This document shows, piece by piece, positions 21,479 to 41,588 of a DNA stretch of 64,000 nt. The stretch's first letter is position 1; each line of letters begins with the position of its first letter. This DNA comes from an uncultured Acidobacteriia bacterium (lineage in GTDB: Bacteria; Acidobacteriota; Terriglobia; Bryobacterales; Bryobacteraceae): the NCBI GenBank assembly GCA_903907865.1, contig CAIVPR010000092.1, positions 1 to 64,000 on the forward strand. Reading direction: 5' to 3'. The translations under genes and the position numbers were made by a program. The notes below the pieces were generated by a model. The model worked only from the letters and a program-made list of their open reading frames with translations, made no database searches and was not told where the DNA came from.

Positions 21479-23926
21479 TTGCCCGTGTCGCCGAAATTCT
21501 TCTGCGAGGTCAGCCTGCCCGTACCGCTCGACCGCGCCTTCACCTATTCCCTGCCCTCCCACCTCGAACAGCGGGTGCGGACCGGGATGAGGGTGCTGGT
21601 GCCGTTCGGGTCGCGCCGTCTGACCGGTGTCGTCCTCCGAGTCCACCAGGAGCGGCCAGAGCCGGGTGTCTCTCTGAAGGAAATTGCGCGGGTGCTGGAC
21701 CCCGAGCCCGTCCTCGACGATTCCCTGCTGGCCCTAGGCCGCTGGATTTCCGGCTACTACTGCACCGCGCTGGGCGAAGTCCTGCGCTCCATGCTGCCGC
21801 TCGCCTCCGACATCAAGGCGGGCAAAATGTACGCTCTCACCCCCGCCGGGCGCGACGCCGCCAAGCAGCTCTCCATCGACCCCTCCGCCGACAGCGAGCT
21901 GGACCAGATCCTGAAGCTGCTCGAAAACCGCGAACGCTCCGCCGCTTACCTGACCAAGAAGGTCCCGCTGGCGGCGAAAGTGCTGAAATCGCTCGAAAAG
22001 CGCGGCTGGATCATGGTCGAGGAGGTCGAGCGCGACCGCGACCCCCTCCGTTCTCCCTCCACCAAACTGCGCGTGAGCCTGCTGCCCGCGGGCGAGAACC
22101 CGCAGGGCAAACACCCCAAGGCCGAGCGCGAACTGCTGGCGTACTTGTCGCTCCACCCCGGAACCCACAACCTGGCCGACGTCGAAAACGCTATCAAGAA
22201 CGGCGGCACGGCGGCGCGCGTCCTGGCGCGGACGGGCTTGGTGAAGCTGGAGGCGGAGGAGATCGCCATCCGCTCAGCCCCCATCCGCAAGCCCCACGAC
22301 CTCAACCCGCCCCAGCGGGAAGCCTTCGACGCCATCAAAGCTGGCCTCGACGCCGGAAAATTCCACACCTTCCTCCTCTACGGCGTCACCGGCTCCGGCA
22401 AAACCGAGGTCTATCTCAACGCCATCGACCACGCCCTTGCCCTCGGACGCAGCGCCCTGCTGCTGGTCCCCGAAATCGCCCTCACGCCGCAGATGGCGGG
22501 ACAGTTCCACGCCCGTTTCGGGGACAAGGTGGCGATCCTGCACAGCGCCTTCAGCGACACCGAGCGCGCCGGACAATGGCGGCGCATCCGCTCCTCCGGC
22601 GCGACCGTCGTGGTGGCGACCCGCTCCGGCGTCTTCGCGCCCGTGACCAATCCCGGCCTGATCATCGTCGACGAAGAGCACGACGGCAGCTACAAGCAGG
22701 AGGAAAACCCGCGCTACAACGGCCGCGACGTCGCCATCGTGCGCGCCCAAGCCGCCGGTGCCGTTGTGGTGCTGGGGTCGGCAACGCCCAGCATGGAGAG
22801 CCGCAACAACGCCCTCTCCGGCAAATACACCCTGCTCGAAATGCCGGACCGCATCGCCGAGCGCCCCATGCCCAAGGTCTACCTGGTGGACATGCGGCAG
22901 GAGTTCCTCGAAACCCGCAAGCACGCCACGTTTTCGCGGCAGTTGCTCGAAGCCCTGCGCGACAAGCTGGCGAGCAACGAGCAGGCCATGATCCTGCTCA
23001 ACCGGCGCGGATTTTCCAGCCACGTCGTCTGCCGATCATGTGGCGGACGGGTCGAGTGCATCAACTGCGCACTCACCCTGACTTGGCACAAGCGCGACCG
23101 CCGCCTGCTCTGCCACTACTGCGCCTACGCCCAGAAGGTGCCGGATGTCTGCCCGAAATGCGACAGCGAGCACATCCAGTTCATGGGCACGGGGTCCGAA
23201 CGGGTGGAAGACGAGTTGCACTCCGAATTCCCCGAAGCCCGGATCGCCCGCCTCGACCGCGACACCGTCGTCGGCAAGCGCCAGTTCGAGGACATCCTGC
23301 ACAACTTCCGCGAGGGCAATTTCGACATTCTGGTGGGCACGCAGATGATCGCCAAGGGGCACGACATCCCGAACGTGACGTTGGTGGGCGTGGTGTCGGC
23401 GGACGTTGGGCTGGGGATGCCGGATTTCCGTGCCGCCGAGCGGACGTTCCAGTTGCTGACGCAGGTCGCCGGACGCGCCGGACGCGGGAATCTGCCGGGT
23501 ACGGTCTACATGCAGACCATCAACCCGGACCACTACGCGATCGACCTCGCGTCGCGTCAGGACTACAACGGCTTCTTCCAGAAGGAGTTGCAGTTCCGGC
23601 GCTTCATGAAGTACCCGCCGTTCAGCGCCATGGCGAACATTTTGGTGCGCGCGCCGCTGCAGGAGGACGCGCTGCGGATGGCGACGGAACTGGGCGGGCA
23701 CATGTCCCCGGCACTGGCGGCTCCGGTGGAGAACATGCGGATCCTGGGTCCGGCCGAGGCCCCGGTCCCGCGGTTGAAGGCGGAATTCCGGTATCAGTTG
23801 CTGGTGAAGTCGGGGAGCCGGAAGGCCTTGAACGCGCTGCTGCAGAAGGCGCGGGAGTTCGCTCGGGAGAAAAAGTGGGGGGCCACGGCGCTGGTGATCG
23901 ACGTGGACCCGCTGACCTTGCTCTAG
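21479..23926 (+). CDS. priA: Primosomal replication restart helicase PriA
   Basis: 815-residue replication restart helicase that reloads the replisome at stalled forks. It has the N-terminal 3'-OH binding domain, Walker A GVTGSGKTEV, the Walker B box DEEHDGSYKQEE, the paired zinc-binding cysteines CRSCGGRVECINC and CHYC...CPKCDS inserted in the helicase core, and motifs GTQMIAKGHD and QVAGRAGR. The start is a TTG at 21479 or a GTG at 21485, and neither has a strong ribosome binding site. A second copy of its last dozen or so codons lies near 24530. Confidence 0.96.
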   Translation: MPVSPKFFCEVSLPVPLDRAFTYSLPSHLEQRVRTGMRVLVPFGSRRLTGVVLRVHQERPEPGVSLKEIARVLDPEPVLDDSLLALGRWISGYYCTALGEVLRSMLPLASDIKAGKMYALTPAGRDAAKQLSIDPSADSELDQILKLLENRERSAAYLTKKVPLAAKVLKSLEKRGWIMVEEVERDRDPLRSPSTKLRVSLLPAGENPQGKHPKAERELLAYLSLHPGTHNLADVENAIKNGGTAARVLARTGLVKLEAEEIAIRSAPIRKPHDLNPPQREAFDAIKAGLDAGKFHTFLLYGVTGSGKTEVYLNAIDHALALGRSALLLVPEIALTPQMAGQFHARFGDKVAILHSAFSDTERAGQWRRIRSSGATVVVATRSGVFAPVTNPGLIIVDEEHDGSYKQEENPRYNGRDVAIVRAQAAGAVVVLGSATPSMESRNNALSGKYTLLEMPDRIAERPMPKVYLVDMRQEFLETRKHATFSRQLLEALRDKLASNEQAMILLNRRGFSSHVVCRSCGGRVECINCALTLTWHKRDRRLLCHYCAYAQKVPDVCPKCDSEHIQFMGTGSERVEDELHSEFPEARIARLDRDTVVGKRQFEDILHNFREGNFDILVGTQMIAKGHDIPNVTLVGVVSADVGLGMPDFRAAERTFQLLTQVAGRAGRGNLPGTVYMQTINPDHYAIDLASRQDYNGFFQKELQFRRFMKYPPFSAMANILVRAPLQEDALRMATELGGHMSPALAAPVENMRILGPAEAPVPRLKAEFRYQLLVKSGSRKALNALLQKAREFAREKKWGATALVIDVDPLTLL

Positions 23927-23971: not shown

Positions 23972-24409
23972 ATGGAACCGAAAGCCCGCCAGATCCACGA
24001 ACTCAGCTGGTGGATGGCCACCTTCCTGTCGTGTCTGGCCTTTCTGACCGTCCTAACCGGCTACACCCAGCCGCCCCGGCAGGACGAGGGTGCAGGTGCG
24101 CACATCTTCCAACTGACGATTGTGGCCTTGGCTGGTGCCCTCGTCGTCTTCGCGGCGACTGCCGATTGGAGCCATCCGCTGCGCGTCGTCAAAAGACTGC
24201 TGATCCCGGCCATCGCCACGGTCTTGGCTTTCGCGGCCGTTTGGTACCTGGAGCACGTCCGGGACCCGAACTATGTCGGGCGTCTGGGTGTGCCTCACCC
24301 CAAAGCGATCGCGAAGCCTTCCTTCGCCGCCGTCACCGTCCGGTCAATATCCAGCTCCGAATGTGCCGTGGAAACAACGAGCGCCTCGAACTGCGATGGC
24401 GGCACGTAG
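23972..24409 (+). CDS. Small membrane protein whose tail runs into antisense hemL copy
   Basis: 145 residues with no recognised family. Three hydrophobic segments are visible (about residues 14-31, 48-64 and 78-92), so it is probably an inner-membrane protein. The last 40 or so residues from [12 protein letters not shown] onward are read antisense to a duplicated 3' fragment of hemL (24295-24508), so the native C-terminus was probably lost when that fragment arrived. Whether the fused protein is made is not known. Confidence 0.5.
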
Positions 24410-24508
24410 ACGCCGCGCTCCAGCATCGCGTGGAAGAACTTCCCGAACTGGCGGTGTCGCGACTCTTGGCCGAATCCCAATCCGTCATCGGCTGGTCGGT
24501 GAAGAACC
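24295..24508 (-). pseudogene. Second copy of the hemL 3' end
   Basis: On the minus strand this stretch encodes [20 protein letters not shown] and KEGFAIALG, nearly identical to the C-terminus of the intact HemL at 25456-25680. It keeps its own TGA stop. A one-base deletion near 24450 shifts the upstream part out of frame ([19 protein letters not shown] lies in another frame). Nucleotide identity looks like 80-90 percent, too low for a very recent duplication. Confidence 0.85.
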
Positions 24509-24549
24509 GCCGCGCTAGTGATCGACGTGGACCCTCTGACCCTGCTGTA
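24509..24549 (+). pseudogene. Second copy of the priA 3' end
   Basis: About 40 bases encoding [12 protein letters not shown] and a TAA stop, matching the last codons and stop position of priA (23890-23926) with a few silent changes. It directly abuts the hemL fragment, so the junction fuses two gene tails that belong to convergent genes. Confidence 0.8.
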
Positions 24550-25455: not shown

Positions 25456-26727
25456 TTACCCCAACGCGATCGCGAAACTCTCCTTCGCAGCCGCAACCGT
25501 CCGCTCGATATCCGCCTCCGAATGCGCCGTGGAAACAAACAGCGCCTCGAACTGCGACGGCGGCAAGTACACGCCGCGCTCCAGCATCGCGTGGAAGAAC
25601 TTCCCGAACTTCGCGGTGTCGCACTTCTTGGCCGAATCCCAGTCGGTCACCGGCTGGTCCGTGAAGAACCACGTCATCATCGACCCGATCCGGTTCACCG
25701 TCACGCTCTCCGGCGCGCAGGCCGCCAGCCGACCGGTCGCGGCATTCAGCTGCTCGTAGATCTCCGGATGGCTTTGAATATGCCGCAGCATCGCGAGCCC
25801 CGCCCCCACCGCCAACGGATTGCCCGACAGCGTCCCCGCCTGGTAAATCGGCCCGCTGGGCGCGATATGGCTCATGATGTCGCGACGCCCGCCATAGACC
25901 GCGATCGGCAGTCCGCCCCCGACCACCTTGCCCAGCGTCGTCAGATCCGGCTTGATCCCGTAAAGCTGCTGCGCGCCACCCGGCGACACCCGGAATCCCG
26001 TCATCACTTCATCGAAAATCAGTAGCGCCCCATAGCGAGCCGTGATCTCGCGCAGCGCCTCCAGATACCCCGGATTGGGAGGGATGCAGCCCATGTTCCC
26101 GCACACCGGCTCCACGATCACCGCCGCGATCTTGTCCGGATGCGCCTTGAAGGCGTCCTCGACCGCCTGCGCGTCGTTGAACGGCAGCGCCATCGTGGTG
26201 TCGCTGAACCCCTTCGGCACGCCGGGGGAATCCGGCAACCCGAGCGTCGCCACGCCCGACCCGGCCTTCACCAGCAGCGAATCGACGTGCCCGTGGTAGC
26301 AGCCCTCGAACTTGATGGTGATATCGCGGCCGGTGAACCCGCGGGCCACGCGCAACGCCGACATGGTCGCCTCGGTACCGGAATTGACCAGCCGGACGAG
26401 TTCCATCGACGGAACCAGCGCGCGAACGGCCTCGGCGAGGTCCACTTCCTGCTCGGTGGGCGCGCCGAAACTGGTGCCCCGCAGCATCGCCTCCTCGAGT
26501 GCCGCCAGGATTTCCGGGTGACGGTGCCCCAGCAGCAGCGGTCCCCAGGAACCGATGTAGTCGATGTATTCATTGCCGTCGGCGTCGAACAGACGGGACC
26601 CCTGGCCCCTCGCGATGAACCGGGGATTGCCGCCGACCCCGCGCCATGCGCGTACCGGCGAGTTGACGCCGCCGGGGATGGAAAGGCGGGCGCGTTCGAA
26701 GAGTTGCTGCGATTGTTCGGTGTGCAC
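25456..26727 (-). CDS. hemL: Glutamate-1-semialdehyde 2,1-aminomutase
   Basis: 423 residues, the usual HemL length. It converts glutamate-1-semialdehyde to 5-aminolevulinate in C5 heme synthesis with PLP bound to K267 in [10 protein letters not shown]. Family motifs include [18 protein letters not shown] and the [10 protein letters not shown] metal/PLP loop. The GTG at 26727 is taken as start because it gives the family N-terminus [12 protein letters not shown] and has GGAAGG just before it. The frame continues upstream but without homology. It is divergent from the SDR gene by 63 bases. Confidence 0.96.
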
Positions 26728-26790
26728 TGCCTTCCAGCTTACCGAAACCCGCCTCGCCCACGGGGAACCGACCCGTGAGAAACTGTTCCC

Positions 26791-27543
26791 ATGATCGAGA
26801 CGGGACTGGAAGGGAAAGTTGTCGTAGTCACGGGCGGGGCGGCAGGGATCGGACGCGCCACCGTGCAGCGTTTTGCCGCCGAGGGCTGCCGGGTTTCCGT
26901 GTGGGACGTGCGCGCACCGGAAGCGGAGCCCGCAGTCGACTACCAGCATGTGGACGTGACCTCCACCGCCTCGGTCGAGGCCGCAACCAAGGCCGTGGTC
27001 GAAAAATGGGGCCGCATCGACGTGCTCGTGAACAACGCCGGCATCCTGCGCGACGCCCAGTTGGTCCGCTACCGCGACGGCGCGGTCAGCGGCCTTCTTT
27101 CCGACGAACAGTTCGACGCTGTCATCAATGTCAACCTGAGGGGCGTGTTCGTGTGCACGCGGGCCGTGGTGCCGTCGATGATCGCGGCGAAATCGGGCGT
27201 GATCCTGAACGCGTCGAGCGTGGTGGGGCTTTACGGCAACTTCGGCCAGACGAACTACGTGGCGTCGAAGGCGGCCGTGATCGGCATGACGCAGACCTGG
27301 GCGCGGGAGTTGGGAAAGTACGGAATCCGCGTGAATGCCGTGGCCCCGGGGTTCATCGCGACCGACATGGTGAAGGCGATGCCGGAAAAAGTACTGGACG
27401 GCATGCGCGGCCACACGCCGCTGGGCCGGATGGGCGAGCCGGAGGACGTGGCCAACGCGTATGTGTGGCTGGCGTCGTCGGGGGCGTCGTTCGTGCACGG
27501 GACGGTGCTGTCGGTGGATGGCGGGATTGTGGTGGGCACGTAA
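26791..27543 (+). CDS. SDR family oxidoreductase (FabG-like)
   Basis: 250 residues of classical short-chain dehydrogenase: TGGAAGIG nucleotide-binding motif (residues 14-21), NNAG (81-84), Ser in NASSVVG (about 142), Y156 and K160 in YVASK, and the C-terminal VDGG. It resembles 3-oxoacyl-ACP reductases, but many unrelated alcohol dehydrogenases share these features and no fatty acid genes are adjacent. Its cofactor is NAD(P)H. Confidence 0.9.
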
Positions 27544-28167: not shown

Positions 28168-28237
28168 GCCCACACCACCGCCCCTGAATAGCCCAACCGG
28201 TGACTGATCGCTGCGCCCCCATTGCTAGACTGCGAAG

Positions 28238-29533: not shown

Positions 29534-29644
29534 GCGGTGACAAGTTTTTTCACCCAATCTTCCCCACAGAATCAATAACTTACAAAAACCATGGTTCGGA
29601 ATGGGCCCCCTCCCGGCGTAGGATCGTTGCCGGGAGGAGAACCT

Positions 29645-30049
29645 ATGCCCAACGAAATCGAAACACTCGTCAACCGCGAAATCGCCCGTTGCGTGGCCCG
29701 CATCGCGGAATGCGAAGGCCGTGAGGCTGAATTTGGGACCACGCCGGACGCGAAGCTCCGCGCCGCAAACGACCGGGACCGCGACCGCGCCTTCATCTCG
29801 TTCGCCCGCGCCCTGAAAATGCGCCGCGAGTTGCAGAAAGACCAACCCGAGCCTGTCGCCGCTCCGATTGTCCACGAAGCCGCTCCGGCCGCAGCCCCGA
29901 AGGCAATTGCCATCGCCCGAAACACCCTCTGTCCCTGCCGCTCAGGCCAGAAATACAAGCGTTGCTGCGGCCGCCTGGCCCCACCGCTCCACACGGCTGC
30001 CAACCCGCCATCAAGGACCGGGCGCAGTGTGGAATCGAGGACCACATGA
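29645..30049 (+). CDS. SEC-C motif protein
   Basis: 134 residues: an acidic/basic helical N-terminal half, an Ala/Pro linker, and a C-terminal SEC-C zinc-binding motif CPCRSGQKYKRCCG. SEC-C is the metal-binding tail of SecA and is found in many stand-alone proteins of unknown role. GGGAGGAGAACCT directly before ATG 29645 fixes the start. The stop overlaps the chitosanase start (ATGA, 30046-30049), an unusual pairing that suggests joint function or delivery. Confidence 0.8.
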   Translation: MPNEIETLVNREIARCVARIAECEGREAEFGTTPDAKLRAANDRDRDRAFISFARALKMRRELQKDQPEPVAAPIVHEAAPAAAPKAIAIARNTLCPCRSGQKYKRCCGRLAPPLHTAANPPSRTGRSVESRTT

Positions 30050-30915
30050 ACGATCTCCAGAAAGCCACAATCCAAGCCATCGTCAATATCTTCGAGACGG
30101 GCAAGGTTAGTGGCAACTACTCCGCAGTGACCGTGATCCCCGGCGACAGCGGCCACCTCTCCTACGGGCGCAGCCAAGTTTCCCTCGGCAGCGGCAACTT
30201 GTACTTGCTGCTGCAGAAGTATTGCGCACGTGACAATGCCGAGTTCGGAGCCCGGCTCAGCCCGTACCTGCCACGCTTCGAGGCCAAGGACGTGACACTA
30301 GACACCGACCAGGATGTTCGCAGCCTGCTGAAGTCGGCCGGGGCGGACCCGGTGATGCGGGCCGTCCAGGATAGCTATTTCGACGAGAACTACTTCACTC
30401 CGGCGATCAAATCGGCGCAATCGCTGGGACTCACCAATATCCTGAGCCAAGGCCTCGCGTACGACGGCTGCATCCAAGGCGGCTGGTACCGGCTCATCAA
30501 GACCATGCCCAAAGTTTCCGATGTGGGCGAAGAGGCTTGGGCGGCCCAGTATGTCACGGCAAGGCGCGATTGGCTGCTCTCGTGTGCCCCGCCACTGCCC
30601 ATAACCGTCTACCGGATGGACTCGTTCCAACAACTCATGGACAGCAACAACTGGGATTTGGCGCTGCCCATCACCGTGCACGGCGTCACGATCACGGAGG
30701 AACTCCTGTCCGGCGCCCCCCGCGAACTCACGCTGACGAGCCCGTTCATGCGGGGCGACGATGTGGCGACCGTTCAATCAAAGTTGGGAATCGGGCCCGC
30801 CGACGGCGTCTATGGCGCCAATACCGCCCGCATCGTTGCGCAGTTCCAACTCGACAACGGCATCACCGGCGAGACCGGCGTCGGACCGTTGACGCGCGCA
30901 AAACTCGGCTTGTAG
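30046..30915 (+). CDS. GH46-like chitosanase with peptidoglycan-binding domain
   Basis: 289 residues. The N-terminal ~200 residues resemble GH46-type chitosanases of the lysozyme superfamily, with IVNIFETGKVSGNYSAV (candidate acid Glu) and PGDSGHLSYGRSQ (candidate Asp). Residues about 225-289 form a peptidoglycan-binding type 1 domain (DDVATVQSKLGIGPADGVYG and VGPLTRAKLGL). No signal peptide is seen, which is odd for an enzyme acting on chitosan or cell wall. The start overlaps the SEC-C gene stop. The specific substrate is inferred from the family. Confidence 0.78.
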   Translation: MNDLQKATIQAIVNIFETGKVSGNYSAVTVIPGDSGHLSYGRSQVSLGSGNLYLLLQKYCARDNAEFGARLSPYLPRFEAKDVTLDTDQDVRSLLKSAGADPVMRAVQDSYFDENYFTPAIKSAQSLGLTNILSQGLAYDGCIQGGWYRLIKTMPKVSDVGEEAWAAQYVTARRDWLLSCAPPLPITVYRMDSFQQLMDSNNWDLALPITVHGVTITEELLSGAPRELTLTSPFMRGDDVATVQSKLGIGPADGVYGANTARIVAQFQLDNGITGETGVGPLTRAKLGL

Positions 30916-30927
30916 GTGATACGGGGC

Positions 30928-32100: not shown

Positions 32101-33123
32101 TTAGTAACCTTTCTTCTTGTCCACAACATTGACCATCGGGAGACCGTCGGCAAAGCGCCGGATGTTGTCCTTGATGGTGCCCAGCATGCGCGCGTTATCC
32201 AAATCCGACCGGCCCGCGATGTGCGGCGTGATCATCACGTTCTTGAAGCTCCACAGGGGGTGGCCTTTGGGCAGTGGTTCGGGGTCGGTCACATCGACGC
32301 CCGCGCCGTCCAGCTTCTGCGAATCCAGCGCCTTCACCAGTCCGTTCATGTCGTAGACTCCGCCGCGGCTGACCGCCACAAAGTACGAATGCTGCTTCAT
32401 CAGCTCGAACTCCTTGGCACCGAACATCTTGTGGCTCTTGTCGGTGTCGGGGGCCGAGATGAAAACCGCGTCGGCCAGCGGCACGACCTCGTCCAGTTGG
32501 TCCGGCTTCACAACACGGTCGACGTACGAGACGATGGGCTTCTCCTCCGGGTCGACGCCGATGACGTGCATGCCGAACGCCCAGCAGCGCAGCGCGATGT
32601 TGGTGCCGATGCCGCCCATGCCGATGATGAGGGCCGTCTTGCCCCGCAACTCGATGCCTTTGAAGGGGGTCTTGAGCCAGTCCTCGTTCTGCTTGGCCGC
32701 GCCGTATTCATTCAGGCGGCGGGAGGTGTAGAGGAGCAGCGCCATGGCGTGGTCTGCGATCTCAATGCCCTGCACGACCTTGTTGTTCGTCATGATGACG
32801 TCGCTGTTCTTGAACGGCCCGGAACCGGGGACTTGCAGGATGTTCTCGAGGCCCGCCGACATCACACCGACCCACTTCAACTGCTTGGACGCCGCGTACA
32901 TTTCGGGAGTGATCACGCCGATGAAGCCATCGGCGTCCGCGATTTCGGTCAACACGTTGGCCGAAGTGGCCCCGACGACCTTCACTTTGGGCGAAACCGA
33001 CTGGAAATCCTGCACCTGGCCTGCAGCGGGATTGAGGACGACGATCTTCTTGACCTGGGCCGAAATGGGTTGGACAACGAGGAGGGCGAGGCCCGCGAGC
33101 ACGATGGGGAAGAATTTGCGCAT
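32101..33123 (-). CDS. D-2-hydroxyacid dehydrogenase with signal peptide
   Basis: 340 residues. The catalytic core is a complete D-isomer 2-hydroxyacid dehydrogenase: Rossmann motif GMGGIG (168-173), R253 in VSRGG, E282 in DPEPLPKG and H301 in TPHIAGRSD. The N-terminus has a clear signal peptide ending PISAQ, so the enzyme seems exported, which is unusual for an NAD(P)-dependent family. The first codons and upstream region are part of a perfect 66-bp repeat, the other copy of which lies at 37267-37332. Confidence 0.88.
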   Translation of the reverse strand: MRKFFPIVLAGLALLVVQPISAQVKKIVVLNPAAGQVQDFQSVSPKVKVVGATSANVLTEIADADGFIGVITPEMYAASKQLKWVGVMSAGLENILQVPGSGPFKNSDVIMTNNKVVQGIEIADHAMALLLYTSRRLNEYGAAKQNEDWLKTPFKGIELRGKTALIIGMGGIGTNIALRCWAFGMHVIGVDPEEKPIVSYVDRVVKPDQLDEVVPLADAVFISAPDTDKSHKMFGAKEFELMKQHSYFVAVSRGGVYDMNGLVKALDSQKLDGAGVDVTDPEPLPKGHPLWSFKNVMITPHIAGRSDLDNARMLGTIKDNIRRFADGLPMVNVVDKKKGY

Positions 33124-33143
33124 CGGCTGAATTCTATCGCACC
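33078..33143. repeat. 66-bp perfect direct repeat, copy A
   Basis: Covers the first ~15 codons and upstream bases of the dehydrogenase gene. It is identical base for base to 37267-37332, in the same orientation. Read on the minus strand it holds the last codons and TAG of the TPR regulator followed, ten bases later, by the dehydrogenase ATG. It marks the left edge of the islet 33144-37266. Confidence 0.95.
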
Positions 33144-33306
33144 ACAGCACACCACCGGAACATCGCCAGGACGGACCACCTCTTGGTGTGCGTCCGGTGC
33201 CGTCCGCTGGTGGCACGGGATGGATCGTTCATCCGCGAAACCCGGCCACCCGCCGGAAAACCCGCGGCCCAATGGCTTGCCGCATGGTAAGAAACCGTTA
33301 AGAACC

Positions 33307-34068
33307 ATGCCAGCCACGCTGAAGACACTCATCGTCGACGACGAGCCGATTGCCCGACGAATCCTTCGGGAAGAACTCGAGGCTCTGGAGGATGTGAGGG
33401 TGATCGGCGAAGCGGACAACGGGGCAACCGCTCTCGATCTGATCGGCGAACACAACCCGGACTTGGTCCTGCTCGATCTCCAAATGCCCCTCGTGGGCGG
33501 GCTCGAAGTCGTTCGCAGACTCAAGTGCGGTGCGCGGTTACCAGCCATCGTGATGGTGACGGCATGGGACCAATACGCGATCCAAGCGTTCGAGGTGGGA
33601 GCAATCGACTACCTATTGAAGCCGGTGGCCCCCGAACGCCTCGCGGAAGCCGTCGAAAGGGTGCGACAGCGGTCCGCCTCGATGAGCGCAGAACAGATCG
33701 TCCGCATTCAGGAACTCCACAAGCCGTCCAACGAACCCGCCCCCAGGAGGATTATCGGCCGCCTCGGGACCGAGTACGTCCTTCTGAACGCCGACGAGGT
33801 TTATGCCTTCCAAGCCGATGGCGACCTTGTATGGATCATGACGGCAAAGGGCAAGCTACTCGCGAGCCAGACACTCGCCGTGCTGGAAGAACGGTTGCGC
33901 GACAGCAGCTTTCAACGCATCCACCGCAATGCGTTGGTGAACATCAACCATGTCCGGAAAATGAGCGCCCTGAGCAGCCAGAGGTGGCTGGTCACATTGA
34001 ACAACAGGATCGAACTAACAGTGAGCAAGAGGCAGGCCCGCACCATCCAGCACCTGCTCGATTGGTGA
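33307..34068 (+). CDS. LytTR-family response regulator
   Basis: 253 residues. The receiver domain has DDEPIARR, the phospho-acceptor D57 in LVLLDLQMP, the conserved TAWDQYAIQAFE and K in YLLKPV. The C-terminal LytTR DNA-binding domain (about 150-253) has IHRNALVNINHV. Proteins of this type are phosphorylated by a membrane histidine kinase, but none is encoded nearby. ACCGTTAAG at 33294-33302, just before the ATG, matches the LytTR half-site consensus and could allow autoregulation. It lies within the repeat-flanked islet. Confidence 0.9.
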   Translation: MPATLKTLIVDDEPIARRILREELEALEDVRVIGEADNGATALDLIGEHNPDLVLLDLQMPLVGGLEVVRRLKCGARLPAIVMVTAWDQYAIQAFEVGAIDYLLKPVAPERLAEAVERVRQRSASMSAEQIVRIQELHKPSNEPAPRRIIGRLGTEYVLLNADEVYAFQADGDLVWIMTAKGKLLASQTLAVLEERLRDSSFQRIHRNALVNINHVRKMSALSSQRWLVTLNNRIELTVSKRQARTIQHLLDW

Positions 34069-34164
34069 GCCGGTCCGCCCACGTCCGTTCCTAGTTCATC
34101 TGCGGAGGGAATCTGGCCGACCGCAGGAATTCGCGTGGAAGGTTTACGCAAACGACGGCAGAAT

Positions 34165-36774
34165 ATGACCATGAAGAAACTTCTCCTTTCCTGCGGCGTC
34201 ATCGCGGTGCTCTTGGCCGGGACGGCGCGGGCTCAGTCGCTTGGGAATGCCGGAACCATCCAGGGAGTGGTGGTCGACGCGACCGGCGGAGTGGTCGCCA
34301 ACGCCAAGGTTGAACTGGCCAACGCCGTTTCGGGTTACCGGCAGGCCGCCACCTCCGGCCCCGACGGGTCCTACCGGCTGACGAACATTCCCGCGAATCC
34401 GTACCATCTCAGCATCTCGGCCGCCGGGTTCGCCCCGTTTTCGGACGACGTGAGCATCCGGAATTCGATCACTGTCCAGTTGAAATCCGTTGTGACCGTT
34501 GCGGGCGGCAAGACCGTGGTGCATGTGGAAGCGACCGGTGCCGACGTCCTCGAGACGGATCCATCCGCCCATGTGGACGTGGACCGCAGCCTGTTCTCCA
34601 AAATCCCAGCCATCGACCCCGGCGGCGGCTTGGCCCAGGCAATCGTCTACAGCACCGGCGGGGTCGCCGCCGACGGCAACGGCTTCTTCCACCCTCTGGG
34701 CGACCACGCCCAGGTCAGCTTCGTGATTGACGGGCAACCGGTCAGCGACCAGCAGAGCAAGGTGTTCTCAACCCAGCTCCCGACGTCCGCCATCCAGGCG
34801 ATGGAAATGACCACCGGCACCCCCAACGCCGAATTCGGCGACAAGACGAGCCTGGTGGTCGCAGTGACCACCCGCTCAGGGCTCGGGGCAACGCGGAGCT
34901 TCGGCAGCGTGGACGCCACCTACGGCTCGTTCGGAACCTCCGGCGGAGGTCTCAGCTACGGTTTCGGCAACGCCAAGTTCGGAAACTTCTTCGCCGCCGA
35001 CGGTGTCCGCAGCGGCCGGTTCCTGGACACCCCGGAGTTCCGTCCCATCCACGACAAGGGGAACAACCAGACCCTCTTCGACCGGCTCGACTATCAGCCC
35101 ACGGGATCGGACGTCTTCCACCTGAACCTGTTCGCTGCCCGCAACTGGATCCAGATCCCGAACAGCTACGACCAGGCCGGGCAGGACCAGCGGCAGCGGG
35201 TCCTCACTTGGAGCGTGGCCCCGGGCTACCAGCACACCCTGAACGCCCGCACCCTATTGACGATCAACCCCTACATCCGCAAGGACCAGTTCAACTACTA
35301 CGCCAGCCGCGATCCGTTCGCCGATACGCCAGCCACGCAGAGCCAGAACCGTCAGTTGCTCAACTGGGGGGTGCGTGCCGACCTCGCTGCCTCGCGCGGC
35401 CACCACGACCTGAAGCTGGGTATCGACACCAAACAGACGCGGCTGCGGGAGAACTTCGGCTTCGGCATCACCGATCCAACGTTCAACGACCCGTGCGTGA
35501 ATCCCGATCGAAGCTCCGTCGGCGACCCCACCCTCACTAAACCGTCGCAATGCGTCGCGGCAGGCTACGAGCCCAACACTGCCGACAACCCGGACTCTTC
35601 GAACCCGTTCTCACCGGGCTTGACCCCGTTCGACCTGACGCGCAGCGGGTCACTATTCCGGTTCCATGCCGCCAGGAACATCAGCCAGTTCGCGGTGTAC
35701 GCCTCCGACACGTATACAAGGGGCGGCTTCGTCGTCACACTCGGACTGCGGTTGGACGAGTATTCCGGCTTGGTCTCGAAGTTCGAGCCCCAGCCGCGCG
35801 CCGGCGTGGCGTACAACCTCAAGAAGACGGGCACCGTGTTCCGGGTTGCCTACGCGCGCACCATGGAAACACCCTTCAACGAGAACCTGCTGCTTTCAAG
35901 CGCGACCGGTATCGGCGGCTTGGCCTCCAACGTCTTCGGCGCAACCGCGGTCCCGATCAGCCCGGGCTTCCGCAACCAGTTCAATACGGGGTTCCAGCAG
36001 GCACTGGGAAGATACCTCCTTTTGGACGCCGATTACTTCTGGAAGTTCACTCACAACGCCTACGACTTCAGCACCCTACTCAACACCACCATCACCTTTC
36101 CCATCGCATGGCACAACTCAAAGCTCGACGGCGTGACCGGAAGGATGAGCACGACCAACCTCCGGGGCTTCCAAGCCTACTGGACCTTCGGCCACACCCG
36201 GGCCCGCTACTATCCGCCCGAGAACGGCGGCCTCATCCCCCAGGGCGCGCCGCTGGCGGGAGGGGTGTTCCGCATCGACCACGACCAGGCTTTCCAATCG
36301 ACACTCAACCTCCGCTACCAGCGTCCGAAGAATGCCGAGTGGATTGCGCTCACGTATCGCTACGACAGCGGCCTAGTCGTCAGCGGCGTCCCCGACGCCG
36401 ACTTCGCGATCAACGGACTAACCCCGAACCAGCAGGTCACGATCGGACTGGCATGCGGCGGAACCTTCGCCACGGTCGCAAATCCAATCACGGACTGCGG
36501 CAAGACCGTGACGTCAAAATTGTTGACCCTGCCGCAAACCGGCAAGGAGAACGACGACCACAATCCGGATCGTGTCAAACCCCGCAACATTTTCAATCTG
36601 GGAATCGGCACCGACAATCTGCTCCACCGCGAGGGCACGCGCCGGATCACGGCGGCGCTCGACATCGCCAACCTGACCAACAAGGTGGCGCTCTACAACT
36701 TCCTGTCGACGTTCAGCGGCACGCACTTCCTGCAACCCCGGACGCTGGTCGCCAAGATCGGATATACTTTCTAG
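34165..36774 (+). CDS. TonB-dependent receptor-like outer membrane protein
   Basis: About 869 residues with a signal peptide ending TARAQS. The N-terminal carboxypeptidase-regulatory-like (Cna-B-type) domain (about 30-110) has IQGVVVDATGGVVANAKVEL and GSYRLTNIPANPYHL. A plug-like region and a long outer-membrane beta barrel follow, ending in KIGYTF with the terminal Phe needed for barrel assembly. Such proteins bind and import oligomers or nutrients with TonB energy. It lies in the repeat-flanked islet after the LytTR regulator, which may control it. Confidence 0.88.
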   Translation: MTMKKLLLSCGVIAVLLAGTARAQSLGNAGTIQGVVVDATGGVVANAKVELANAVSGYRQAATSGPDGSYRLTNIPANPYHLSISAAGFAPFSDDVSIRNSITVQLKSVVTVAGGKTVVHVEATGADVLETDPSAHVDVDRSLFSKIPAIDPGGGLAQAIVYSTGGVAADGNGFFHPLGDHAQVSFVIDGQPVSDQQSKVFSTQLPTSAIQAMEMTTGTPNAEFGDKTSLVVAVTTRSGLGATRSFGSVDATYGSFGTSGGGLSYGFGNAKFGNFFAADGVRSGRFLDTPEFRPIHDKGNNQTLFDRLDYQPTGSDVFHLNLFAARNWIQIPNSYDQAGQDQRQRVLTWSVAPGYQHTLNARTLLTINPYIRKDQFNYYASRDPFADTPATQSQNRQLLNWGVRADLAASRGHHDLKLGIDTKQTRLRENFGFGITDPTFNDPCVNPDRSSVGDPTLTKPSQCVAAGYEPNTADNPDSSNPFSPGLTPFDLTRSGSLFRFHAARNISQFAVYASDTYTRGGFVVTLGLRLDEYSGLVSKFEPQPRAGVAYNLKKTGTVFRVAYARTMETPFNENLLLSSATGIGGLASNVFGATAVPISPGFRNQFNTGFQQALGRYLLLDADYFWKFTHNAYDFSTLLNTTITFPIAWHNSKLDGVTGRMSTTNLRGFQAYWTFGHTRARYYPPENGGLIPQGAPLAGGVFRIDHDQAFQSTLNLRYQRPKNAEWIALTYRYDSGLVVSGVPDADFAINGLTPNQQVTIGLACGGTFATVANPITDCGKTVTSKLLTLPQTGKENDDHNPDRVKPRNIFNLGIGTDNLLHREGTRRITAALDIANLTNKVALYNFLSTFSGTHFLQPRTLVAKIGYTF

Positions 36775-36823
36775 TCTCGCGAGAGCGGGCCGCAGCGCTT
36801 GCGGCAGTGAAGGTCCAGAAGCA

Positions 36824-36845
36824 AGCCCCGGCGCAGTCCGGGGCT
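36824..36845 (+). terminator. Hairpin after TonB-type receptor gene
   Basis: Perfect 8-bp stem AGCCCCGG / CCGGGGCT with a six-base loop, followed by CGTTT. It lies 50 bases after the receptor stop and before the CusF-like gene. It is a plausible terminator with a weak T-tract. Confidence 0.5.
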
Positions 36846-36881
36846 CGTTTCGTTGGATGGAAAGGACCGGTGATTGACAAC

Positions 36882-37211
36882 ATGCTACGAGTCTTCCTGC
36901 CGCTGGGCGTGACACTCCTATTGGCTCTGTTTTGCATCCCTGCCAAGGGGGCTGACGGTCCACGGCCCAGCCAGCACACGGTTGCGGGAACTGTGGTCCG
37001 CGTGGAGCCTCAGGACTCGACGCTCGTCATCCGGGAAACCGGCTTCCTGGGGCGGTTCAGAATCCAAGTGAAATCGTATCGAGTGAAAAAGCCCAGCCAA
37101 CTCGCCCATCTTTCGCCCGGCGACAAGGTGTCCGGGGTCTACTTCACGAAGGACGGCCTATTGCACGGACTGAGAAGTCCGGGGAGCCAACCGCCACGGC
37201 GCGCGCCGTGA
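36882..37211 (+). CDS. CusF-like small exported protein
   Basis: 109 residues with a signal peptide ending PAKGAD and a beta-barrel body starting HTVAGTVVRVEPQDSTLVIR. The pattern resembles the CusF-type OB-fold or other small periplasmic domains, but the Met/Trp copper ligands of true CusF are not seen, so metal binding is doubtful. A GTG at 36870 with AAAGGA upstream is an alternative start. It is the last gene in the islet. Confidence 0.55.
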   Translation: MLRVFLPLGVTLLLALFCIPAKGADGPRPSQHTVAGTVVRVEPQDSTLVIRETGFLGRFRIQVKSYRVKKPSQLAHLSPGDKVSGVYFTKDGLLHGLRSPGSQPPRRAP

Positions 37212-37246
37212 GGAGCAATGGCATCGACGGCAACGCGGGATTCGCA

Positions 37247-37312
37247 CTACCGCCCCGTTGCCCCGTCGAGGAGGGCGAGGCCCGCGAGCACGATGGGGAA
37301 GAATTTGCGCAT
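37247..37312 (-). pseudogene. Truncated 5' stub of the D-2-hydroxyacid dehydrogenase gene
   Basis: The repeat copy B contains the ATG and first ~15 codons of the dehydrogenase gene (MRKFFPIVLAGLALL). The frame then runs into islet sequence and stops after 21 codons. It marks where the dehydrogenase gene once began, directly after the TPR regulator. Confidence 0.85.
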
Positions 37313-37332
37313 CGGCTGAATTCTATCGCACC
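37267..37332. repeat. 66-bp perfect direct repeat, copy B
   Basis: Identical to 33078-33143, same orientation. It contains the TAG stop and last codons of the TPR regulator gene (37323-37332 region) and the stub of the dehydrogenase gene. The two copies bracket 33144-37266. Confidence 0.95.
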
Positions 37333-40124
37333 GAAGTGGACAGAAGCTTCTGCGCGCGCGCCGCCACTCCGAGGTAACCCTTGGCCGTGCTCTCTGTCAC
37401 CAACTCCTTCAATTGCCTGCCTGCGGACCCGCCGTTGTCCCTCGCAACCGCCTCGGCCATCGCCAGCCGCACCTCCAGCATCAGGGAGACGGTGTCTGTC
37501 TTGACGGCTTGGGACTGGGCACGCTGGAACAGAATCGCAGCCTCGCGCTTGTGGCCCATGGCCGATTCGATCCGCCCGGCCGCGATGGTCAAGGGTGTGG
37601 AAGTGAGTAGATCCTCGTCCTTCGCTCCCGCCTTGACGCCGGTTGTCCGGGCCGTCTGTATGGCTTTTGCCGCCGCGGTGGTATCACCGAGGGCCAGCTT
37701 GGCCAGGGCGAGAATCCGGTACGCTTCGGGGATCTGCTTGGACCCTTGTGACGCTTCGGCAAGCGACTGCGCAGCGACCGCCGCCTCCCGGAACCGCCCC
37801 TGCAACAGGTCGATGTCAGCCAAAGCCAGGCTGCAACGCAGCAGTGGGTCCTTGCGCCCCAACGTTCGCTGCATCTTGCACTCTTCGGCGCGGAGTCCAC
37901 GGGCATTCTCCAAGTCCCCCATGTTCTTGGAGAGATTGGCGAGAATGGCGAGCGTGGAGGCAACGGCTGTTTCCGCATGGGTGGCGCGTTGGATGCCCAG
38001 AGCCTCTTCCAAGTCGCGCCGGGCGGCGGGGAGGTCGCCCTTCCGCTGCTCCAGCCGCCCTATGCTGTCCAGAGCGGCGGCAAGATCGATCTTGTTGTCC
38101 GATTTCCGCGATAGTTCCATCAACTCGGTGTAGTTGCGGAGAGCGGCCTCGCTGTCGCCAGTGCGCGTGAACACGTCCCCGAGCCTTCGCAGCGCGATGG
38201 CGACCAGCTTCGGGTCCCCAATCTCCCGGGCAATCGCTAGGCAAGCGTCGAAGTTCTCGCGGGCACCGGCAAGATCCCCTTGCCTCCGCAACACCAGACC
38301 CAGGATGTTGAGGGCGCGGCCTTCCTGCCCTCGGCTCCCGGACTTGCGCGCCAGTTGAAGAGCCCGGTTCACGGCTTCCAACGCCGCTGGCAGCTCGTCG
38401 CTGTCCAAGAGGATCACACTCTCGTTGTTCAAGGCGTTGGCAACGCAGCCGGAATCACCCACTTCGGTGCACAGTCTTACGGCTTCCTGCCACGCAACCC
38501 GCGACTTGACGGAATCCCCGGTCTTCTCCGATGCCAAGGCCTGGCTGGCATGCGCACGGCCCTCCAAGAGCCGCGAGCCCAAGGCTCTCGCTTGCAGCAC
38601 CACACTGGCGAATCCCGACGAAGCTTTCCCGTACTCTCCCCGTGCCATCGCCAACTCGGCTTCCGCGAGCCCCACCCGCGCGGCTACCTCCGCCGACGCG
38701 CTGGCGCGCAGTTTCAGCAGCGTCTTGCCGGCCAGATCACCGGTGCCCGCCCGGATTTGGACCCGCGCCAGCGAGAAACCGAATTCGGGATTGTCGGGGT
38801 GGAACGTCCACAAACTGGCGTATATTTCGGACGCCCGTGGCCATTGGCCGATGGTCTCGCGGTAGCGCGCCTCCACCGCCAGACGTTCGCTGGTGGGCAG
38901 GTGGCCCGACAGCTCCATTGCCTTGCGGGTTTCCTCGCTCGCGCGACGTTCGTAACCCGTTTGCAGCAGCGCCGTGGCCAGTTCCAGATGGCCCAGCGCG
39001 AAGCCGGCGTCCTGGGCAACCACGGATTCGAGCAACGGCTTGGCACCGGCCGGGTCGAACGAGCCCAATTTCTCCAAGGCTTGGAAGTAGATTTTCCGGA
39101 CCGTGGGGTCGGAGGGCTGCACGGCACCCAGCGCGACCCCGTCCTTGGCTTCCTCGTCCGGTGAGATGCGACCGCCGCCGAAGCGGGCCCGAATGCCTGC
39201 CCCCGCCTTGGCCGCCAGGTCCGGGAGCTGTTTCTCGGTGCCCGAAAATACCAGTGCGGCCGCGCTGGTCGGCTTTTCCGTGTCTTGAATCCGCACGTCC
39301 AACCGGACCTGCCCGTCGATGGACAGGTAGGAACCGCTCACCACGTAGTCGCAATCGACCGCGCGGCGGATGCGCGCCAAGGTTTCGTCGAAAAAGCCGC
39401 TTTGGTCCGGAAGGCCCAAGTCGGCCCGGAGGCGGGCCGTGACGTCGCCCGGCAAGGTGCGCAACTTGGAATCGGTTTCGAGCTCGGTGGTAAGCATCTC
39501 CGAGATGGCACGGCTCAACCAGGCGTTCTCCGGCTTTCCGGAAAGGTCGTGGAAGCTGATGACGGCGACAGCGCTTCGGGGCGGGCGCGGCAGAATGCGG
39601 GCGCGCACGGTCCAGATGCCAGCCGATGCAAGGAGGAGCGCCGCGACGGCGAACGACCAGCGGGGCCACCGCAGGGCGTGCGACCGGACAGGCGGCGGGA
39701 GGGAAACCGCCACCGGGGGTGCCGTGGGCTGGATGGGACTGGATGGAGGCGCGACGACCGGTTCCTGAACCGGCTGGTGGTACTCGGGCACAACCTCCAC
39801 CGTGAACTGGTATCCGCGCTTGGATATGGTCCGGATCGCCTCGACGCCGGGGAGGCCCTCGTCGAGAATCTTCCTCAGGATGGAAATGTTTTTGGTGAGG
39901 CTGCTTTCCTCGACAAACGAGTCCGCCCAGACCTTGTCCAGAATTTCTTGTTTCGAAACCACTTCGCCCGCGTTCTCCACCAAGAGAAGCAGGACGTCGA
40001 AGGTCTTTGGAGCCAGGGAAACGAGTTCATCGCCCCGGTAAAGCACGCCCGAGCCGGGCCGCAGCCGGAATGGGCCGAAGAGATACCGAGCGGCCTTGGC
40101 CGGTTCTGCCGAGCTGGTTGGCAT
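37323..40124 (-). CDS. Winged-helix (OmpR/CadC-type) membrane regulator with TPR domain
   Basis: 933 residues. An N-terminal PhoB/CadC-like winged-helix DNA-binding domain (about 13-112, with LAPKTFDVLLLLVENAGEVVSK and EESSLTKNISILRKIL) is followed by a proline-rich linker and a transmembrane helix (about 155-172). A TolB-like domain (AVISFHDLSGKPENAWLS) comes next, then many TPR-type repeats to the C-terminus. This layout is common in Acidobacteria and suggests a one-component regulator sensing through its periplasmic part. Its stop codon lies in the 66-bp repeat copy B. The gene likely stood directly upstream of the dehydrogenase gene before the islet arrived. Confidence 0.88.
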   Translation of the reverse strand: MPTSSAEPAKAARYLFGPFRLRPGSGVLYRGDELVSLAPKTFDVLLLLVENAGEVVSKQEILDKVWADSFVEESSLTKNISILRKILDEGLPGVEAIRTISKRGYQFTVEVVPEYHQPVQEPVVAPPSSPIQPTAPPVAVSLPPPVRSHALRWPRWSFAVAALLLASAGIWTVRARILPRPPRSAVAVISFHDLSGKPENAWLSRAISEMLTTELETDSKLRTLPGDVTARLRADLGLPDQSGFFDETLARIRRAVDCDYVVSGSYLSIDGQVRLDVRIQDTEKPTSAAALVFSGTEKQLPDLAAKAGAGIRARFGGGRISPDEEAKDGVALGAVQPSDPTVRKIYFQALEKLGSFDPAGAKPLLESVVAQDAGFALGHLELATALLQTGYERRASEETRKAMELSGHLPTSERLAVEARYRETIGQWPRASEIYASLWTFHPDNPEFGFSLARVQIRAGTGDLAGKTLLKLRASASAEVAARVGLAEAELAMARGEYGKASSGFASVVLQARALGSRLLEGRAHASQALASEKTGDSVKSRVAWQEAVRLCTEVGDSGCVANALNNESVILLDSDELPAALEAVNRALQLARKSGSRGQEGRALNILGLVLRRQGDLAGARENFDACLAIAREIGDPKLVAIALRRLGDVFTRTGDSEAALRNYTELMELSRKSDNKIDLAAALDSIGRLEQRKGDLPAARRDLEEALGIQRATHAETAVASTLAILANLSKNMGDLENARGLRAEECKMQRTLGRKDPLLRCSLALADIDLLQGRFREAAVAAQSLAEASQGSKQIPEAYRILALAKLALGDTTAAAKAIQTARTTGVKAGAKDEDLLTSTPLTIAAGRIESAMGHKREAAILFQRAQSQAVKTDTVSLMLEVRLAMAEAVARDNGGSAGRQLKELVTESTAKGYLGVAARAQKLLSTSVR

Positions 40125-40587
40125 CGCGGGGCGGATTTCCGATCATAGCACGAACCGCGCCCCTGTTTGATTCCGTAACTCTTTTGCAATCTAATGGATA
40201 GAGATTTCCCGCCGTACTTTCGACGGACCGAACCTTACTACGGATCCGCAATTCTGCCGGTGATTTCGAAGAACGAGGTAGTGCTCCCGCCGCCAATATC
40301 AAGGACGCGTTGGCGATAAACCTAGAAATTGTAGTTGGCCGTACCACGGCGTCGCTCCCTCGCGGTCGCGGCTCCGCCGAATCAGCCTGTTACCGAGCCA
40401 CGACACCAAGGGAGTGTTTGTTCGATCCATGCGCAGTTGTTTAAGGCCTTGTTCTCCGCTGACGCGAAGGCAACTGCCGTTTCTGGGATAAACAGCCCGG
40501 AATCGGGCTGGCATGTTTTCATCTGGGGATCGGCATGAGCCTCGGCGGGACGTGCGCTGTTGATGGAGAGCATGAAGGCGGGCGGAA
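40125..40587. other. Intergenic region with a dispersed repeat element
   Basis: About 460 bases with no convincing gene. It holds the upstream region of the TPR regulator (40125-40320) and the REP-like element at 40353-40430. Short frames here are low-quality and partly translate the repeat. Confidence 0.6.
40353..40430. repeat. REP/MITE-like dispersed element, copy 1
   Basis: Begins CGCTCCCTCGCGGTCGCGG and ends AAGGGAGTGTTTGTTCGA. The ends are imperfect inverted repeats (CGCTCCCT and AGGGAGTG), so a hairpin can form. A second copy lies at 56820-56877 and lacks about 24 inner bases. Translated, such elements give the spurious RDREGA-type frames seen often in this phylum. Confidence 0.7.
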
Positions 40588-40617
40588 CGGGTGGGGGCGG
40601 TGGCCCGCCCCCACCCG
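40588..40617 (-). terminator. GC-rich perfect hairpin after small OB-fold gene
   Basis: 13-bp perfect stem CGGGTGGGGGCGG / CCGCCCCCACCCG with a four-base loop, just after the stop at 40624 on the minus strand. It has no T-run, so it may stall or protect the transcript rather than terminate it cleanly. Confidence 0.5.
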
Positions 40618-40623: not shown

Positions 40624-40920
40624 CTACATCTTGACGTCGGTGACGGCGATCACGGTGCCCGTGACCTTGCCGGAAACGGTGACCTTCATGCCGGCGTGCG
40701 GCGCGAGCTTGTCCTGCTTGTCGACCGTGTAGATCTTGCCGTCGGCGGTGACGAGAACGGCTTCAGCGCCGCCCTTGACGCACTTCTGCGAGCATTCGGC
40801 GTTGTTGACCATGGCGGGCTTCGTCGAGCAGTTCTTGTCGACGACAGTGCCGGTGATGTCTTCGGCGAAGGCGGTGGCCGTCATGCCGAGAGCGAGAACG
40901 AAGAGGGCGGTGAGCTTCAT
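40624..40920 (-). CDS. Small exported OB-fold-like protein
   Basis: 98 residues with a signal peptide ending TATAFA and a beta-rich body (ITGTVVDKNCSTKP, KVTVSGKVTGTVIAV) with two cysteines (NCSTKP, ECSQKC) that could pair. Homologues with this layout are annotated only as hypothetical exported proteins. GGGAGAT ten bases before ATG 40920 sets the start. The longer frame to 41037 lacks support. Confidence 0.75.
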   Translation of the reverse strand: MKLTALFVLALGMTATAFAEDITGTVVDKNCSTKPAMVNNAECSQKCVKGGAEAVLVTADGKIYTVDKQDKLAPHAGMKVTVSGKVTGTVIAVTDVKM

Positions 40921-40987
40921 AGTTGTTTGGATCTCCCGTTGGATAGTATAACCGAAATCGGAGCGGGAGATGACTTTGTTTTTTCGC

Positions 40988-41403
40988 CTACGGGACAGCG
41001 ACCGTCCGGGAACTGCCGTTGGAATCAGTGTAGGCATAGCGGAGGGTGTCGCGGCCTTTCACCAAGCGCTTGGGGAAAACCACCAAGACCTTGTGGTAAG
41101 GCAACCGTGCTGAAAGCGTCACCACGCCCTGCACGCCGGGGCGGTTTGTGAAAATCGCTTCGCCCAGTTCCTGCGTCGGTGCCTTGCCCACCGGGCCTGA
41201 AACAGGTGTCGCCGGACCCCGATGTGGGTAGCCTCTCCAATCTCCGGTCAGTTCCTGGGCGTTGGTGCCCACCGAAGAGGCAGGATTCGACACAACTCCG
41301 ACACGAGTTAAACGGTGAGCCAAACAGTGTCTGGCTAAACGGCGCGGTACCAGACACCCCCAAGCGGGGTGGCGTTGAGATGGCCAACGCCTTGGACGTT
41401 CAC
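40988..41403 (-). pseudogene. Broken RES-domain toxin gene
   Basis: A GTG at 41403 overlaps the antitoxin stop (GTGA) and begins a RES-like N-terminus (ATPLGGVWYRAV) that ends at a TAG near 41336. In another frame the RES C-terminal half is intact: GTNAQELTGDWRGYPHRG, APTQELGEAIFTNRPGVQG and YHKVLVVFPKRLVKG. About 80-90 middle residues of a normal RES toxin are missing. RES toxins degrade NAD+. This one cannot be made as a working enzyme. Confidence 0.8.
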
Positions 41404-41588
41404 GAGACTCCAATGTATAGGATCGAATCCACAAGATCCTGAACTCGCTCCCAGTCGCCGCGGTCCAAGAGCTGCTTCGGCGTATCGCCGCCGAGCAGGG
41501 CATGCGGCGTCCCCATCCACGCGACACCGTTGGGGAGGTTCGTGACAACCTCTTGTCGAAGCACAGCGGCGGCATCTGCTTGTAGCAT
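41400..41588 (-). CDS. Xre/MbcA/ParS-like antitoxin (toxin-binding domain)
   Basis: 62 residues matching the DUF2384 toxin-binding domain of RES/ParT antitoxins: MGTPHALLGGDTPKQLLD then WERVQDLVDSILYIG. It lacks an N-terminal Xre helix-turn-helix, like other minimal members. It overlaps the start of the wrecked RES gene by four bases. Because the toxin is destroyed, the antitoxin is left without a local partner. Confidence 0.78.
   Translation of the reverse strand: MLQADAAAVLRQEVVTNLPNGVAWMGTPHALLGGDTPKQLLDRGDWERVQDLVDSILYIGVS

Follow-up and report, generated by a model that had tools for sequence, protein, structure and literature searches.

How does a group of genes come to lie between two perfect copies of a short chromosomal sequence when no transposase or integrase is recognised among its products? 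This question is raised by a 4123-bp islet in the genome of an uncultured bacterium of the Bryobacteraceae (GenBank assembly GCA_903907865.1, contig CAIVPR010000092.1, positions 1 to 64,000, hereafter the window; the genome is designated G000), where the islet separates a D-2-hydroxyacid dehydrogenase gene from the gene of a TPR regulator. The sequences that bound it, 33078-33143 and 37267-37332, are identical at 66 of 66 nucleotides and lie in direct orientation at a spacing of 4189 bp, and the bases adjoining the two copies differ on both sides. On the minus strand, each copy reads GTG CGA TAG, ten bases, and then the ATG and 15 codons of the dehydrogenase. The TPR open reading frame (ORF) thereby owes to the right copy its TAG, the two whole codons before it and one base of the codon preceding these; in the left copy, the same GTG CGA TAG stretch is merely the upstream region of the dehydrogenase gene. 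A preliminary description of this DNA had claimed both a perfect repeat in the same orientation and its span across the two gene ends, and both claims are borne out, the flanks being unlike. It had also considered that the repeat might be widespread elsewhere. For the 66-mer, this is not the case: a search of the whole genome with the dehydrogenase region returned two places only at E <= 1e-20, namely the two copies. Moreover, in a scan for dispersed pairs based on exact 20-mers (1,638,826 bases, 39 contigs of G000), the 66-bp pair was the longest direct pair with unlike 30-bp flanks (17% and 37%); the next-longest pairs, of 51, 42, 40 and 38 bp, resemble intergenic repeats by eye or lie just 372 bp apart.

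The state of this site in relatives indicates which arrangement is the older one. The species closest to G000 are G015 and G018, with 82-83% DNA identity across the part that is shared; in both, the 66-bp sequence is present as a single copy and the islet is absent, as is the TPR block. These findings agree with the earlier view of the block as an insertion and of the repeat as derived from the target; a situation in which all relatives carry the same genes here without repeats was not found. Likewise, domain matches agree with the cargo as first described, i.e., a LytTR regulator, a TonB-type receptor and a CusF-like protein (the CusF match lies below the cut-off), and, as had been noted, none of the three islet proteins matches a transposase or integrase. 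The cargo is also free of restriction-modification genes, and no inverted repeats of at least 9 bp were found between 300-bp windows at the two islet ends.

With slightly better than even confidence, it may be assumed that the islet entered by homology-anchored capture, that is, as a circularised fragment integrated by one crossover. A donor fragment from a related cell would have carried the islet directly upstream of the dehydrogenase promoter core and the first 66 bp of the dehydrogenase unit. Its ends would have been joined to form a circle, and one RecA-type crossover within the 66 bp would have brought it into a chromosome in which the TPR gene adjoined the dehydrogenase gene. The product would be TPR - 66 bp - islet - 66 bp - dehydrogenase, with both flanking genes whole, and no enzyme encoded by the element itself would be needed.

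The promoter core mentioned above is the 14-bp element GTGCGATAGAATTC, which occurs exactly upstream of the dehydrogenase gene in G000, G006, G010, G012, G015 and G018, i.e., in 6 of the 11 genus genomes with a dehydrogenase match. The sequence preceding it differs among these six, the sisters G015 and G018 excepted, and most of the upstream genes differ too. Because the ATG follows GTGCGATAGAATTC without an evident ribosome-binding site, the element is likely to be the -10 region of a leaderless promoter, a call that follows common motif logic. The outer edge of the 66-bp repeat is, by eye, also the point at which the sequence upstream of the dehydrogenase gene diverges in G006, G010 and G012, each of which has other neighbours; this is as expected if the edge marks the limit of homology between donor and recipient. 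As a separate observation, genes for Ku and LigD lie near the dehydrogenase relative of G004 (L065:7820-11058).

The preliminary description regarded the TPR and dehydrogenase genes as a former operon split by the islet. In G015 and G018, the gene order is metallo-beta-lactamase - dehydrogenase - DUF5818 - Zn-ribbon - malate synthase, and only 45 bp separate a block ending at the DUF5818 terminator from a block starting at GTGCGATAGAATTC, with no TPR gene and no islet. The window has the same genes, with these 45 bp replaced by the TPR block, a repeat copy and the islet. Relatives of the TPR regulator are rare, being present in 3 of 257 genomes of the order (one genome per species, the window genome included; E <= 1e-60) and in 3 of 41 by protein (E <= 1e-100); in G015 and G018 they are at another locus, and the TPR gene adjoins the dehydrogenase gene in the window genome alone. 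The C-terminus of the G018 protein reads ARAQKIL plus 11 residues, and that of the window protein ARAQKLL-STSVR, whose last two codons and TAG lie in the dehydrogenase promoter core; the window gene thus stops a few codons short of the native end. Since the TPR tail and stop come from the promoter core and the sister species have DUF5818 next to the dehydrogenase, the arrangement of the parts indicates that the TPR-dehydrogenase adjacency is itself derived and not ancestral. Formally, the TPR gene may have been lost in the ancestor of G015 and G018, although its replaced tail argues against such a loss. Thus, only one half of the operon proposal holds: from the order of the parts, the two genes would have been adjacent just before the islet entered, but this was not the old arrangement, and a TPR-dehydrogenase operon as the ancestral state is rejected. 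In the window, approx. 8 bp lie between the last conserved TPR codon and the joint of the TPR block, vs. 57 bp in G018; the boundary is therefore not precise, and an element with fixed ends is rejected. It is also unlikely that the TPR islet of G015/G018 moved directly into the window, as the TPR proteins are only 63-70% identical.

Where the islet came from can be narrowed by its relatives. Receptor DNA relatives are found in 34 of the 257 genomes, the window genome counted (E <= 1e-150), and the best islet DNA matches elsewhere in this set reach 66-73% identity at the same threshold. At the protein level, the closest receptor relative (72% identity) is that of G017. Among the cases in which neighbours were inspected, a LytTR gene and a histidine kinase gene adjoin the receptor gene in G008, G017 (C323), G019 and the paralog of G000 itself on C74 (L017:2727-8027), where the module reads histidine kinase - LytTR - receptor. 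Next to the G015 receptor relative on C339, no LytTR match was present within the stretch examined. The islet lacks the kinase, the single full-length kinase match in G000 sits on C74, and a search for a histidine-kinase remnant inside the islet gave nothing better than E 0.55. In its tetranucleotide profile, the islet does not stand out from the genome (61% of random stretches deviate at least as much), and hence no distant donor is indicated. We infer that a related genome was the source of the islet, which represents part of a module.

Replication template switching deserves mention at this point. Two stalls at the dehydrogenase promoter core, with jumps to islet and TPR templates, would fit the fact that both foreign blocks abut the same promoter-core base, and the terminator hairpin of DUF5818 stands at the far end of the TPR block. 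This course of events is nonetheless very improbable, because G000 offers no close islet template (the best paralog has 69% DNA identity) and no second TPR match, and because recurrence at many genes with diverged copies, described below, is not predicted by it. Hairpins at all break points were also considered and rejected, as just two of six folded stretches, the DUF5818 terminator (z -1.7) and the 66-bp repeat (z -2.0), were better than most shuffles, unlike the islet ends (-1.0 and -0.1); the ends of the TPR block gave 0.7 and 0.4.

Structures of this kind recur within G000. Each contig was compared with itself by BLAST (41 contigs, 2,049,321 bases, 27% of G000), and pairs of 35-250 bp with at least 75% identity, 0.6-15 kb apart, were collected. 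Of 82 direct and 5 inverted pairs, 23 direct and 0 inverted ones were left once multi-copy pairs and those with a same-offset neighbour had been discarded. Seven of these 23 pair the 3' end of an intact ORF with a free fragment; in six of them, the similarity stops within 4 bp of the stop-codon end, and in the remaining one 18 bp short of it. The seven pairs represent six loci, one each on C5, C27 and C44, two on C53, and one that priA and an aminotransferase gene share; together with the 66-bp pair, 8 of the 23 pairs at seven loci are concerned. The probability of finding 6 gene-end edges in 23 pairs by chance under three nulls was 3e-6, 3e-4 (measured stop density, four edges per pair) and 8e-4. 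Several of the 15 pairs not counted as gene-end pairs are inside paralogous genes or internal repeats (C97, C7, C71, C3), and C12, C13, C24 and C44:182599 are unclassified. At the C5 locus, a small ORF without a Pfam match lies beside the PIN-domain gene and is perhaps its antitoxin.

Scars of the same kind at several genes suggest that DNA fragments were captured by chance and that no jumping gene was at work. Direct repeats that restore an interrupted gene do resemble attachment sites, and a site-specific element with 66-bp attL and attR, its integrase acting in trans or lost, would leave such a pair. However, repeats differ in sequence among loci and in length (35-217 bp in G000, about 110 bp in G018), the 14-bp core has one further exact copy in G000 (C53:91901-91914, outside the locus), and neither an integrase among the islet proteins nor an inverted match in the end windows was found, which makes such an element hardly credible.

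The shared locus is the most informative one. From 21479 to 27498, the order is priA, a 366-bp insert, the 216-bp aminotransferase fragment, 3 bp, the 38-bp priA fragment, a 904-bp insert and the aminotransferase gene, and the two fragments meet at their gene-internal ends. This is the order that would be expected from a circle 'priA end - insert - aminotransferase end' and one crossover, and duplication by fill-in would not give it. The back-to-back fragments within 23888-25670 may thus be read as the strongest hint of a circular intermediate. In the stretch of G018 that was examined, there is a single aminotransferase end; because the other flank differs, it does not provide a full empty-site control.

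Two further explanations are affected by this locus. In the case of staggered-break capture, opposite-strand nicks 66 bp apart at the TPR/dehydrogenase junction would be followed by end-joining of the fragment and filling-in of the ends. The perfect identity and direct orientation of the copies, the failure to find a recombinase and the presence of Ku in G000 (match on C130) are all in keeping with it; for LigD, there was no match in the 27% of G000 searched. We regard this as unlikely, though worth keeping in mind, as it provides no account of an outer edge approx. 8 bp from the last conserved TPR codon, of stop-codon edges elsewhere or of the back-to-back priA fragments. Linear one-ended capture (homology-facilitated illegitimate recombination), with a crossover in the dehydrogenase gene on one side and the islet end joined 46 bp into that gene, would lead to the same product at the 66-bp locus, and a related mechanism has been put forward for the displaced effector genes of Vibrio (PMC5361080). 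It is improbable because such joining is usually accompanied by deletion (PMC3240628), and back-to-back priA and aminotransferase fragments are not readily produced by it.

An event with an empty site is also seen outside G000. The TPR relatives of G015 and G018 belong to an islet that also encodes, among others, a Ser/Thr kinase and a rhodanese/metallo-beta-lactamase protein; it is flanked by a Gfo/Idh oxidoreductase gene on one side and a tonB-like gene on the other. About 110 bp from the 3' end of the oxidoreductase gene are repeated at the far side of the islet (R1 vs. R2, 87% identity in G018 and 82% in G015). In G000, the two flanking genes overlap and the stretch is single-copy. In 16 of 19 genus genomes, G000 among them, the two flanking genes were found a short distance apart on the same contig; the islet is present in 2 of 19, and in 1 of 19 the second gene alone was found. 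The islet runs over contig ends in both assemblies, and its middle is therefore deduced from their overlap; the two assemblies have R2 and the TPR-side flank of R1 in common. These data bear on the concern that the 66-bp structure is a chimeric join, made through the 66-mer, in a metagenome bin. The assembly consists of 186 contigs and its near relatives are metagenome bins, but similar structures with diverged copies are present in G000 and the TPR islet is found in two other assemblies, so that an artefact is extremely doubtful.

In the capture scenario, the two copies of a gene end would be diverged alleles from donor and recipient, the alternative being that free fragments have decayed. 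Stop codons at the same codon of the two copies differ in 3 of 7 pairs (TAA/TGA, TGA/TAG, TAG/TAA), and differences at codon positions 1/2/3 number 21/9/42 over the seven G000 pairs, a skew with p = 1e-5 against equal positions. Thus, patterns of substitution favour the diverged-allele reading for the G000 set as a whole, although it is not proved for each pair. Several observations weigh against such capture. The stop is the same in 2 of 7 pairs, and in another 2 of 7 there is no stop at that codon of the fragment. When fragment decay is combined with silent change of the gene, p becomes 0.02 (third position) and 0.003 (second); under the harshest null, it is 0.10 and 0.007, and without C27, 0.08 and 0.14 under the harsher null. 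The TPR-islet repeats have no clear skew (3/6/5 in G018 and 3/5/9 in G015) and are more decay-like. The gene copy is nearer to the outgroup than the fragment (12 v 4 for the aminotransferase, 10 v 2 for G018, 13 v 4 for G015), as simple decay would likewise predict. Furthermore, the gene-end class was defined after the pairs had been inspected. At the dehydrogenase locus itself, the copies are 100% identical, so that donor and recipient alleles are indistinguishable and plain duplication fits equally well, and no donor was found among the 257 genomes of the order, in which neighbours were inspected for part of the islet matches.

Table 1. Positions and properties of the features discussed; window coordinates unless a locus or contig is named.
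Feature	Position	Strand	Remarks
priA, first target gene	21479..23926	+	
Aminotransferase 3' fragment, 216 bp	24293..24508	-	copy of 25454-25670, 87.6%
priA 3' fragment, 38 bp	24512..24549	+	copy of 23888-23925, 89.5%; back to back with aminotransferase fragment
Class-III aminotransferase gene, second target	25456..27498	-	
D-2-hydroxyacid dehydrogenase, target gene	32101..33123	-	PF02826
Left repeat copy	33078..33143	-	promoter core and first 15 codons of intact dehydrogenase gene
Conserved element GTGCGATAGAATTC upstream of dehydrogenase gene	33129..33142	-	exact copies in relatives
GGTGCGATAG			sequence directly before dehydrogenase gene at proposed islet-dehydrogenase junction
Inserted islet, 4123 bp	33144..37266		not at this place in G015, G018
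LytTR response regulator, 253 aa	33307..34068	+	PF00072, PF04397
TonB-dependent-type receptor, 869 aa	34165..36774	+	N-terminal CarboxypepD_reg (PF13620); relatives 51-72% aa identity
Small secreted protein	36870..37211	+	weak CusF resemblance; CusF match E 0.0076, below cut-off
21-codon micro-ORF left by truncated dehydrogenase start	37247..37312	-	
Right repeat copy	37267..37332	-	TPR ORF end, promoter core, truncated dehydrogenase start
TPR regulator	37323..40124	-	Trans_reg_C domain; native tail lost, stop from repeat
TPR block, foreign to site	37333..40592		with islet, occupies place of 45 bp in G018
DUF5818 gene	40624..41037	-	upstream dehydrogenase neighbour in G015, G018
TPR/Ser-Thr-kinase islet, G015 and G018	L066:5264-5372, L167:5714-5822, L175:13133-13260		gene-end duplication of about 110 bp; empty site in G000
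PIN-domain gene and small ORF	L125:4773-5703, G000 C5		between two end copies of an aspartyl-type tRNA synthetase gene (named by domain make-up), target of gene-end pair
Dihydroorotase-like gene			target of gene-end pair
PQQ dehydrogenase gene			target of gene-end pair; BrnA antitoxin match between copies
DUF1501 gene			target of gene-end pair
DUF1549/DUF1553 gene			target of gene-end pair; adjoins DUF1501 gene
priA and aminotransferase gene			targets of remaining two pairs, one locus

The product at the dehydrogenase locus is an 'insertion with long target duplication', a known kind of event that was first named from Helicobacter pylori (Nobusato et al., Gene 2000; PMC1643837, PMC3031569); PMC4978471 and PMC3874152 cite the same kind of insertion. 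The H. pylori cases are alike in that genes lie inside a variable-length direct repeat of the target and were found via a related genome; they differ in their cargo, which in H. pylori frequently comprises restriction-modification genes, whereas the G000 cargo comprises regulators and a receptor and, elsewhere, toxin-antitoxin-like genes. Edges at gene boundaries and a back-to-back locus were observed in the present analysis. In E. coli, linear DNA with one homologous end was mostly ligated to a circle with loss of some homology and then integrated by a single crossover, one-ended illegitimate joining being approx. 10 times rarer (PMC3240628). For example, 56 of 60 clones gave a polymerase chain reaction product diagnostic of duplication of the lacZ end, and in 14 that were sequenced it measured 109-950 bp (PMC3240628). 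The outcome, foreign DNA followed by a duplicated gene end without a recombinase in the insert, is that of G000, but the E. coli experiments employed laboratory conjugation and an engineered plasmid, whereas G000 concerns natural DNA and 35-217 bp (PMC3240628). For displaced effectors and orphan immunity genes of Vibrio, it has likewise been suggested that one-sided homology introduces a new neighbour and pushes the old sequence downstream; there, the effector gene itself is displaced, whereas the target gene in G000 is intact (PMC5361080). In Arabidopsis, direct repeats flank transposed genes and often match the gene-free orthologous site; this is a eukaryote with partly within-genome moves, whereas no donor site was found for the G000 islet (PMC2869330). 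In the open-access literature, no report showing such capture in Acidobacteria was found.

It is tempting to extend this explanation to the genus, which might gain genes largely by enzyme-free capture, i.e., by taking up fragments of relatives' chromosomes that end in a shared gene, are circularised and integrate by one crossover in the last 35-220 bp; this generalisation is tentative and should be considered possible rather than probable. If true, gene-end fragments would be left as fossils from which each event, the gene targeted and the divergence of the donor could be read. Gene gain without phages or transposons often leaves its mechanism invisible. Gene-end fragments mark such events and so make it possible to count, date and compare them (in 27% of G000, there are 8 pairs at 7 loci), and since the priA/aminotransferase arrangement is the one expected of a circular intermediate, the mechanism becomes testable from sequence alone. 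At priA and the aspartyl-type tRNA synthetase gene, an insertion that does not restore the gene end should be costly.

Some minor features of the window should also be noted. A REP-like dispersed repeat of the CGCTCCCTCGCGGTCGCGGCT type is present at 40353-40374, in the TPR block, and at 56819-56841, and repeats of this type gave 82 BLAST matches in 2.05 Mb of G000. Four stretches of the window that are missing from G018 are located at or near gene boundaries (27551-28221, 29533-30927, 40961-41653 and 43547-45410). None of the four has long end repeats, the longest direct match in the end windows being 10 bp. The stretch 29533-30927 carries a GH46 chitosanase-like gene and encodes a SEC-C protein.

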